Shown piece after piece: positions 50,005 to 55,570 of a stretch of DNA of 64,000 bases (position 1 is its first letter; every line of letters starts with the position of its first letter). The translations under genes were made by a program, and so were the position numbers. A model generated the notes under the pieces. It searched no databases and was not told where the DNA came from. It saw only the letters and a program-made list of their open reading frames with translations. The stretch comes from Cypionkella sp. (lineage in GTDB: Bacteria > Pseudomonadota > Alphaproteobacteria > Rhodobacterales > Rhodobacteraceae): assembly GCF_030652235.1 (NCBI RefSeq), contig NZ_JAUSBA010000034.1, forward strand, positions 62,001-126,000, given 5' to 3'.

Positions 50005-51366
50005 TTAGCGCGGTGTACGGGCCACAGCCGAGCGCGGCTTGGCCGCACCATCAGCGCGGCGCGGTGCAAAGCTGCCGCCTGCGGGCTTCGGCTTGCCCAT
50101 CGGTTTCGCACCGGGCTTGCCGGGGGCCGCACGTTGGATCGGTTGGCTGCCGGGCTTTTGCCCCCCACGGCTCATGCCGGGGCGCTGGCCACGATTCTGG
50201 CCGGGTTTCGGTGCGGCAGCAACGGCGTCAGCAGCCCAAGGCGCGCCACCCAAGATCGGGATCGGTTTTTTCAGCAGCTTTTCAATGGCTTGCAATTCGC
50301 CCATTTCCGCAGGCGCGCAGAAGGAAATCGAGGTGCCCTCTTTGCCCGCGCGTGCTGTCCGGCCAATGCGGTGAACGTAGTTTTCTGGCACGTTCGGCAT
50401 GTCAAAGTTATAGACAAAGCGCACGCCCGGAATGTCGATGCCACGCGAAGCAACGTCAGTTGCCACCAGCACATCGAGTTCAGCCTTGCGGAATTCGGTC
50501 AAAGTGCGGTCGCGCTGGTTCTGGCTTTTGTTGCCGTGGATCGAGCCTGCCTTAAAGCCCCAAGCCACCAAAAGCTTCATCAGCTTTTCCGAACCATGCT
50601 TGGTGCGGCCAAACACCAAGGCCTGCTCGCCCGGATGCTTCAGCAGATATTCTTTCAGCATCAGTGCTTTATCGCCGTTCGGCAGGTAATGCACGCCTTG
50701 GTCGATCCGCTCTACCGGCTTGCCCGGAGGGGCGACTTGCACCTTGATCGGGTTTTGCAGATAGGTCGACGCCAGTTCTTCGATATCCTTCGGCATGGTC
50801 GCCGAGAACAGCAGGGTCTGGCGTTTCAGCGGGATATGCTTGGCGATTTTGCGCAAAGAATGGATGAAACCCATATCAAGCATGTGGTCGGCCTCATCCA
50901 GCACCAGATAGCCGGTGGCGCTAAGGCTGACATCGCCACGCTCTAGAAGGTCGATCAGGCGGCCGGGGGTGGCGACAAGGATATCGGCGCCGCGCTTCAG
51001 CCGTTCGGCTTGCTTGAACAGCGAGGCACCACCAACAACCATGGCGACTTTAACGGAAGTGCCTTTGGTGAAAACCTCAAGGTTATCCGCGATTTGGGCG
51101 ACAAGCTCGCGGGTCGGGGCCAAGATCAAAGCCCGCACGGTTTTCGGCGCCGGCGGGTGGCCCAGATCAAGGATACGGTGCAGCAAAGGCAGGCCAAACG
51201 CGGCGGTTTTGCCGGTGCCAGTCTGCGCCAGACCCATCAGGTCTTTGCCCGCCATGATATGCGGGATCGCCTGCACCTGAATCGGTGACGGCATCTTGAG
51301 GGTGGTTTTTTCCAGTGCTTTCAGGATGGTTTCCGAAAGCCCAAGGTCTGCGAAAGTGGTGGTCAT
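50005..51366 (-). CDS. DEAD-box RNA helicase (RhlE-like)
   Basis: A 453-residue ATP-dependent RNA helicase. Visible motifs in order: Q-motif (PSPIQVQAIP), I (AQTGTGKT), Ia (PTRELVAQ), II (DEAD), III (SAT), V (ATDVASRGIDIPGV) and VI (HRIGRTARAG). A basic Gly/Pro/Arg-rich tail of about 80 residues follows, usual for RNA contact. The start at 51366 is family-like (TTTFADLGLSETILKAL). A leader of 150 or more bases is possible, since the region up to about 51550 holds no gene. It likely helps ribosome assembly or RNA decay. Confidence 0.9.
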   Translation of the reverse strand: MTTTFADLGLSETILKALEKTTLKMPSPIQVQAIPHIMAGKDLMGLAQTGTGKTAAFGLPLLHRILDLGHPPAPKTVRALILAPTRELVAQIADNLEVFTKGTSVKVAMVVGGASLFKQAERLKRGADILVATPGRLIDLLERGDVSLSATGYLVLDEADHMLDMGFIHSLRKIAKHIPLKRQTLLFSATMPKDIEELASTYLQNPIKVQVAPPGKPVERIDQGVHYLPNGDKALMLKEYLLKHPGEQALVFGRTKHGSEKLMKLLVAWGFKAGSIHGNKSQNQRDRTLTEFRKAELDVLVATDVASRGIDIPGVRFVYNFDMPNVPENYVHRIGRTARAGKEGTSISFCAPAEMGELQAIEKLLKKPIPILGGAPWAADAVAAAPKPGQNRGQRPGMSRGGQKPGSQPIQRAAPGKPGAKPMGKPKPAGGSFAPRRADGAAKPRSAVARTPR

Positions 51367-51645
51367 AACAGTCTTTCCGGCGGCCCATAGCCGCCCGTCC
51401 ACCCCGAGGGGCGGCAGTGGGAAGCGACACCCCCTCGCATCAGGCGCTTGCCCAATACCGTGGCCATCGCGGAACCCCTGCGTGCGGTGGGAACCAGTAT
51501 CCATGGCCTTACACATGCTCACGCGGCACGGGCACTATGGATGTGGCGGAAATGACGGATTGGGGGGGATTTGTCAAGAGGGGCGTTTGGTGGGGTATCG
51601 GGAAGGCGTAAGGGTTTGTTAATCTTATGGCGCCAGACACTGAGG

Positions 51646-52167
51646 ATGCCGAATTATGTCCGACCCAAAGTAAAAGGTGCGACCGTGTTTTTCACGGTGG
51701 CTTTGGTTGACCGAAACAGTGATCTTTTAATCCGCGAGGTTGAGCGGTTGCGGTAGTCGGTCCGGGCGACTTGCCACGAACGGCCATTCAAGGTTGACGC
51801 TTGGGTGGTATTGCCAGACCATTTGCATTGCGTGTGGACATTGCCGGAGGGTGATCGGGATTTCGCGATCCGATGGGGGGCAATCAAATCGCGCTTCACG
51901 CGCAGTTTGCGTAGGGTGGGGTTCCACCCCACCGATCCTGCAAGTGCGGTGGGGTGGAACCCCACCCTACGATCCGCTTCAAAGGTATCGAAGGGGGATG
52001 CGGGCCTGTGGCAGCGCAGATTTTGGGAACATCACATCAGAGGTGACGGGGATTATCATGCGCATGTAAATTATTGCTGGATCAATCCAGTCAAGCATGG
52101 GTTGGTTGAGCGTCCAGAAGATTGGCCGTATTCCTCGTTCCATAGAGACAGGAAGATGGCAGAGTAG
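51646..52167 (+). pseudogene. REP-associated tyrosine transposase, interrupted by an amber codon
   Basis: One reading frame encodes a RAYT-type Y1 transposase: PNYVRPKVKGATVFFTVAL, then HLHCVWTLPEGD with the metal-binding His pair, WQRRFWEHH, and YCWINPVKHGLVERPEDW with the catalytic-type tyrosine. A single TAG at 51754-51756 splits it; both halves are in the same frame. Around residue 88 a 60-base palindromic element (51911-51970) is inserted in frame, adding 20 residues (RVGFHPTDPASAVGWNPTLR region). The final stop TAG belongs to a second copy of that element. It is probably inactive unless the amber codon is read through. Confidence 0.8.
51911..51970. repeat. Palindromic REP-type element, copy 1, inside the RAYT frame
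   Basis: Two perfectly complementary 24-base arms (51911-51934 and 51947-51970) flank a 12-base centre. Each arm is itself palindromic, with GGTGGGGT and ACCCCACC around a TCC loop, so the unit is a pair of REP hairpins in inverted orientation. Its 60-base length keeps the transposase frame open. Confidence 0.92.
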
Positions 52168-52228
52168 GGTGGGGTTTCACCCCACCGCCCCCGGCATTTG
52201 CTTAAGCGTGGTGGGGTGAAACCCCACC

Positions 52229-52232
<4 letters not shown>
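52164..52232. repeat. Palindromic REP-type element, copy 2, between RAYT and carB
   Basis: Two perfectly complementary 23-base arms (52164-52186 and 52210-52232) flank a 23-base centre. Compared with copy 1 the hairpin loop is TTC instead of TCC, with the matching change on the other arm. TAG at 52165-52167 ends the transposase frame, and TAG on the minus strand at 52229-52231 ends carB; both lie in the outer edges of the element. It may also terminate both transcripts. Confidence 0.92.

Positions 52233-55570
<3,338 letters not shown>

Follow-up and report, generated by a model that had tools for sequence, protein, structure and literature searches.

RAYT (TnpA-REP) enzymes are reported to act on cognate GTAG hairpins in single-stranded form, which they bind and cut (PMC8266576), and REPIN populations to persist for millions of years, the RAYT genes themselves not being copied by their own product (PMC8049555). 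How such an enzyme and its REP repeat stay matched is the puzzle touched by the locus analysed here, in which a REPIN lies in frame inside a RAYT gene. The locus raises the question of how the element came to be there and what has kept it in place; the first-pass annotation had proposed that it might be self-limiting, or a natural record of self-insertion.

The RAYT gene of the window and its REPINs

The features of the window (the whole stretch of DNA that was analysed, 64,000 nucleotides long) that bear on this question are the following:

50005-51522, minus strand: DEAD-box RNA helicase ORF, divergent neighbour
51646-52167, plus strand: RAYT (TnpA-REP) frame with a REPIN inside and a TAG at 51754-51756; probably a pseudogene
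51911-51933, plus strand: embedded REP unit 1, GTAGGGTGGGGTTCCACCCCACC, found by inverted-repeat and REP scans; reading frame NGT AGG ...
51934-51947, plus strand: linker of 14 nt joining the embedded REP units
51948-51970, minus strand: embedded REP unit 2, inverted; reading frame on the plus strand ... CTA CGN
52164-52186, plus strand: downstream REP unit, whose GTAG gives the RAYT stop codon TAG (52165-52167)
52210-52232, minus strand: inverted partner of the downstream REP, whose GTAG gives the carB stop codon TAG (52231-52229)
52229-55570, minus strand: carB-like gene (carbamoyl-phosphate synthase large chain), convergent neighbour

The element lies in an inverted repeat whose two arms of 25 nt (51910-51934 and 51947-51971) are 100% complementary and separated by 12 nt. 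The 60 nt (20 codons) at 51911-51970 are made up of two GTAG units of 23 nt, the second inverted, with the linker of 14 nt between them, and the in-frame translation across the pair falls within ...LRRVGFHPTDPASAVGWNPTLRS.... When folded as single-stranded DNA this segment yielded -35.1 kcal/mol (z -10.3), a value equalled by none of 200 shuffled sequences. It has the attributes of a REPIN, namely two inverted REPs with GTAG feet, a short spacer, and copies dispersed in the genome. Allowing for one mismatch, four REP-like sites were observed in the window against 0.22 expected, and all four belong to the REPINs at 51911-51970 and 52164-52232. The genome contains 22 full copies of the unit, the four of the window included, and among the four REP types scanned this one dominates. 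The element at 51911-51970 is a REPIN of the host genome's own REP type, placed in frame in the RAYT loop. The first-pass annotation, which had described a perfect double palindrome of 60 bases translated within the gene of its presumed transposase, was right as to the palindrome, its translation and its being a REP pair in its own RAYT gene; the frame, however, is broken further upstream.

That the gene is a RAYT is indicated by the match of its open piece (51805-52164) to NF047646 (REP_Tyr_transpos; E 3e-36). Across the whole gene, positions 1-146 of this profile are covered (E 1.2e-49) with one TAG inside; no Pfam match was obtained at E 0.001. Both the HUH motif (PDHLH) and the motif of the catalytic tyrosine (HVNYCWINP) are present in the translation. 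The frame is open through the REPIN and interrupted upstream of it by the TAG at 51754-51756, so that the window has no intact RAYT frame; among the matches listed in the family search, this RAYT alone has an internal stop. Because of that codon the window RAYT is probably dead: the enzyme is probably not made whole, and this copy is probably decaying.

A single REPIN (52164-52232) ends two convergent genes, RAYT and carB, with its TAGs; neither this second REPIN, with the RAYT stop it supplies, nor the in-frame TAG at 51754-51756 figured in the first-pass annotation. GTAG REPs of the type repeated in the genome thereby adjoin the RAYT on its downstream side, and the scan for REP-like sites revealed no REP unit flanking it upstream in the window. 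The genome has another RAYT, located outside the window (G000:C39:26786-27193, L177), with no insert and a loop of 20 residues. No orthologue of the locus with an empty site was found in the two places examined, an 11-kb stretch of a genome of the same genus (G014) and locus L009; both align around the RAYT only, and their neighbours do not match. Elsewhere in the genome, an ORF of at least 100 amino acids spans the REP at eight of 19 other sites. A Pfam scan of five such ORFs gave no match for four and, for the fifth, a carbon-nitrogen hydrolase domain that starts downstream of its REP. No further clear intragenic REP was found in this partial check, which left aside the ORFs at L246, L253 and L255.

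Distribution and position of REP units within RAYT genes

To compare RAYT genes, a profile was built from 21 insert-free members and the loop was measured from the F of IKxRF to the W of WQRRFW. The rows came from similarity-ranked loci and from the family search; 184 parsed records were reduced to 154 distinct RAYTs by dropping exact duplicates, near-copies being kept (L188 did not parse, and the hits left out include G129, G203, G066, G187, G151 and G177). The usual loop was 21-22 residues long. In-frame REP hairpins occurred in the loop of 60 of the 154 (53 by a stricter test), detection having accepted GTAG or GTAA feet at the price of a few chance GTAA hairpins, as in L079. A further five had long loops with no detectable unit, a class in which decayed inserts were counted unless they were missed, and 89 had neither insert nor extra length. 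In the family search, which covered 198 genomes (69 with a RAYT hit), 35 of the 70 RAYT genes parsed carried REP units, three were long without them and 32 had none. In searches at class and phylum level, for which loop length alone was scored, the best 54 new loci yielded 50 parsed RAYTs with loops of 9-26 residues, at least one of these loci (L190) belonging to the window's own family.

The REP units were concentrated in the loop. By the stricter test, 86 units were found in the loops of 53 RAYTs (13.6 kb) versus one in 55 kb of flanking core, and one codon phase prevailed (35 of 37 GTAG units, 44 of 49 CTAC units). Seven REP types were distinguished among the embedded units under our own labels, and the extra loop residues numbered from three to nearly 60. 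A REP unit (up to three differences over 20 nt) was present in the scanned flanks of 41 of the 60 insert-bearing RAYTs, and the stop codon was the TAG of a GTAGG in 42 of 59 insert-bearing genes covered to their 3' end versus 30 of 89 insert-free genes, the latter drawn from several families. In-frame REPs at this site, of several types, are therefore common in RAYTs of the window's family (Rhodobacteraceae), and the arrangement is not a one-off self-insertion. Two genes had unusual arrangements. The loop of L032 holds three REP units of two types, as if stacked in frame, and one of the two RAYT ORFs of L017 (to be compared with L109 of G036) bears a REP unit in its N-terminal half, which is the sole unit outside the loop in the stricter test.

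The position of the insert in the protein was examined on a structural model of one relative, L012 (mean pLDDT 85.8), in which it follows helix alphaC (residues 73-90) and precedes strand beta4 (129-132). Residues 101-120, within the insert region, had a pLDDT of ~52-54, and the insert is predicted to form a flexible loop attached to a core modelled with confidence. The best PDB match of the model was 4er8, the RAYT-REP complex of E. coli (E 1.2e-20). This was also the only PDB chain found by sequence similarity (E 1.2e-44), a match that by itself does not place these RAYTs in subclass 2.2, the group of E. coli TnpA-REP. In the alignment with 4er8, E. coli TnpA-REP has a short turn at the insert site and no extra residues. 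In an alignment of 65 relatives with and without the insert, H59 and H61 were invariant and Y145 was conserved in at least 90%. Its flexibility and its position outside the catalytic core could allow the loop to tolerate additional residues. The first-pass annotation had held that its interpretation would fail if the 20 residues proved a normal part of many RAYTs. Similar residues do occur in many RAYTs of the family; E. coli TnpA-REP, however, lacks them, and the 50 RAYTs of the wider searches have short loops.

The trees of 150-154 RAYT cores, with 131 columns, were poorly resolved and are compatible with one gain of the insert or with many. Forcing all insert genes together cost 71 log-likelihood units and was not rejected (AU p 0.22), nor was a single clade for the lineage defined by the linker peptide LPxVxSGRY (41 units, AU p 0.30). 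The presence and absence of the insert was patchy, with 23 changes on the 150-row tree, and strongly supported branches force at least three changes of label A and at least four of label B.

Conservation of the arms and the match with genomic REPs

Codon drift was compared between arms, linker and core. Genes were assigned to the LPxVxSGRY lineage by the pattern of their linker peptide, which excluded L141 and L174, and for each gene pair, the pairs not being independent, the frequency with which the same residue was encoded by the same codon was recorded. Over 22 RAYTs this reached 0.92 in arm 1 (located in 19 of the 22) and 0.93 in arm 2, versus 0.39 in the linker and 0.51-0.52 in the core. 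A core control matched to the residues of arm 2 gave 0.49-0.55, and the bootstrap difference between arm 2 and core was 0.33-0.48. In a second lineage, GGVNPAL (14 genes), the arms gave 0.81-0.88, the linker 0.35 and the core 0.45-0.50. The synonymous drift of linker and core, beside frozen arms, indicates that the insert is old in both lineages. As far as sequence comparison goes, these values show that in the two lineages the arms have been held at the nucleotide level and not through the peptide alone. This would be a rare case of a hairpin conserved over a long time within a coding sequence, for which the linker, set against the arms, serves as a clean internal control. The linkers of type-A inserts, that of the window included, differ among RAYTs, and these insertions may be younger.

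The pairing of the two arms was examined in 29 arm pairs (17 distinct) with labels B-D, recognisable feet and the main frame, L032 (label A) being left out; this selection favours intact arms and under-represents strongly decayed ones. In the 17 distinct pairs, 97.8% of the cells were paired and 34 cells were altered on both sides. The covariation score was 0.347, compared with 0.098 for shuffled and at most 0.107 for slid versions. Two of the five covariation measures surpassed the shuffles weakly: the number of pairs was matched by 13 of 500 shuffles and the number of pair types by 23 of 500.

To see how the embedded type relates to the REPs of the same genome, four type-specific patterns were scanned over 48 genomes, every reversed-pattern control giving 0, and two units were subtracted per genome for the embedded pair before types were ranked. 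The test covered 28 of the 36 insert genomes, those with labels A, B, C and E, since types D, F and G had no patterns of their own. The embedded type was the commonest of the four in 25 of the 28 (two ties, G014 and G107); permutation gave a mean of 9.0, and none of 20,000 permutations reached 25. The three misses were G112 and G182, with none of the four types, and G103, where another type was commoner. In G235, for instance, the RAYT embeds the GTAGGATGGGTG type, to which nine of the 13 matches listed belong, four of the nine being in or beside the RAYT. Embedding is nevertheless not needed for REP spread, since 89 of the 154 RAYTs are insert-free, among them that of G032 (L095/L131), whose genome contains 136 units of a single REP type.

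Readings of the embedded REPIN and its known counterparts

The evidence speaks best for a cognate target site that resides in the gene of the enzyme and is preserved there as DNA or RNA; its use for feedback is what we infer from this. The reading we lean to, with somewhat less than even confidence, is that of an old resident REPIN retained for the use that the RAYT, or its nucleic acid, makes of the hairpins in its own gene, most likely for negative feedback. In the two lineages with frozen arms the embedded REPIN would have been inherited long-term as part of the RAYT gene. Its hairpins would form when the strand is single, during replication or transcription, or in the mRNA, and the RAYT would bind or cut those of its own gene or transcript as a target in cis. 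RAYT expression would then be capped, and enzyme and target type would stay matched. Autoregulation of this kind is preferred and unproven, and lineages may differ in mechanism. That the arms are decayed in several genes, among them those of G112, G182 and G082, speaks against a strict requirement for intact embedded hairpins. Self-limitation by such feedback is possible, while self-limitation through breakage of the gene is unlikely, as the other listed matches are free of stops and the HUH and tyrosine residues are kept in the 65 relatives. A REPIN fixed in the gene of its enzyme and conserved as nucleic acid would be a natural and testable link between enzyme and repeat.

Gene conversion or re-insertion, instead of selection, could also keep the arms alike. 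REPINs may often be dropped near their own RAYT, with in-frame landings in a tolerant loop surviving and others being lost, so that arms would seem frozen through recent or repeatedly replaced insertions. The REP units near 41 of 60 insert-bearing genes, the dissimilar type-A linkers, the patchy tree with its 23 changes and those forced for labels A and B, the modelled flexibility of the loop and the in-frame GTAG REPs already published for other genes (PMC3733652) all agree with this. It is made somewhat unlikely by the LPxVxSGRY lineage, in which a conserved linker peptide with core-like synonymous drift points to an old insert, by the dominance of one codon phase, and by L020, whose arm pair is perfect and whose exact unit copies in the genome (seven matches) are the two placed at the RAYT, a near relative of the unit, GTAGGGCGGGCTTCAACCCGCC, lying elsewhere. 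The proposed record of self-insertion is thus supported in part: the REP type of the genome is indeed found in its RAYT, but 35 of 70 family RAYTs share the site, nearly always in one codon phase, and one lineage, with its conserved linker and frozen arms, looks old. Alternatively, the arms of an ancient REPIN may have been replaced from genomic REPINs, through gene conversion or an exchange mediated by the RAYT, with no direct selection on the embedded copy. This would account for the agreement between embedded and genomic types, for L011 and L172, which retain an LPxVxSGRY-type linker but have the CGGGGTT-ACCCCG type in both arms and not CGGGCTTCAGCCCG, and for the decayed arms in G112 and G182, whose genomes have none of the four scanned types. 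The exchanged tracts, however, would have to end repeatedly at ~22 nt and skip the linker; perfect arms occur where no donor was seen, in L020 and in L016 (two pattern matches in the genome, equal in number to the embedded pair, their places not being listed); and the arms in G082 (L155) are decayed despite 26 units of that type that could serve as donors. We regard this explanation as unlikely.

Selection on the peptide alone, the REP-encoded residues being part of the enzyme and the codons being kept by chance or codon bias, is highly improbable and disfavoured as the sole cause. The arm peptides are conserved (94% amino acid identity for arm 2 in the LPxVxSGRY lineage), and the decayed second arms of L175, L029 and L072 owe all or most of their differences from the REP to synonymous changes, which favours this explanation. 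Yet 31 of the 53 second arms match the REP of their type at every nucleotide over seven codons, and all 53 together show 16 synonymous against 22 non-synonymous codon differences, some of the latter being differences between types. The codon identity of 0.93 in the arms versus 0.49-0.55 in the residue-matched core, together with stems that change in compensated pairs, also speaks against it. As to how enzyme and repeat might be matched at the protein level, in E. coli TnpA-REP the REP stem is contacted by K82 on helix alpha3, and the GTAG by residues in the vicinity of beta4, Q95 included (PMC8266576); by our reading of the 4er8 alignment, the insert would fall between the equivalents of K82 and of the neighbourhood of Q95. 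Were the REP-encoded loop to touch the REP hairpin, a change of type would rewrite the target and the loop recognising it at once. This is improbable, and if true it would explain both the agreement between embedded and genomic types and the joint switching of REP and RAYT types.

The kind of arrangement is already known, since REPs inside tnpA-REP genes, in frame, are reported by Quentin et al. (2018; PMC6006769), whose text states them to be unique to subclass 2.4, abundant in Cyanobacteria and Bacteroidetes and with a variable insertion domain between beta3 and alphaC. The present genes resemble that subclass in having a REP within the gene without loss of frame, between HuH and Tyr and of variable length; the insert lies, however, between alphaC and beta4 in the L012 model, and no insertion between beta3 and alphaC was found. 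The two were set apart by loop position and not by the profiles of PMC6006769. The main text of that paper has no occurrence of words beginning with 'rhodobacter' or 'alphaproteobacteria', and codon freeze, hairpin covariation and a match to genome type were not found in it, its supplementary figures lying outside this comparison. No other report of REPs inside RAYT genes was found in the literature covered, mainly the main texts of open papers. New here are the other bacterial family, the other loop, the evidence of constraint at the nucleotide level and the matching of REP types.

Rickettsia palindromic elements (RPEs) are likewise palindromic repeats translated in frame. In R. conorii their ends are CGTC (PMC3733652), unlike the GTAG feet of the present element, which is not an RPE by this measure; nor does that paper, in its main text, describe for RPEs a tie to a transposase of their own such as that seen here. 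The intragenic GTAG REPs reported in the same source (Di Nocera et al. 2013) are closer, as they comprise in-frame REPs and dimers, and GTAGs that give the TAG stops of flanking ORFs; many of their hosts, by contrast, are replication or repair genes, and the main text was not found to mention a REP inside a RAYT. As in REPINs and REPtrons generally, two REPs are inverted and the RAYT is flanked by REPs of its type. The usual REPtron has its REPs outside the gene (PMC3733652), whereas the present gene has one pair in its interior and another overlapping its stop codon. G032, with its 136 units and its insert-free RAYT, offers a natural comparison for what embedding adds. In G014, four REP units of the same type and strand lie ~54 bases apart (G014:C5:81517-81702).
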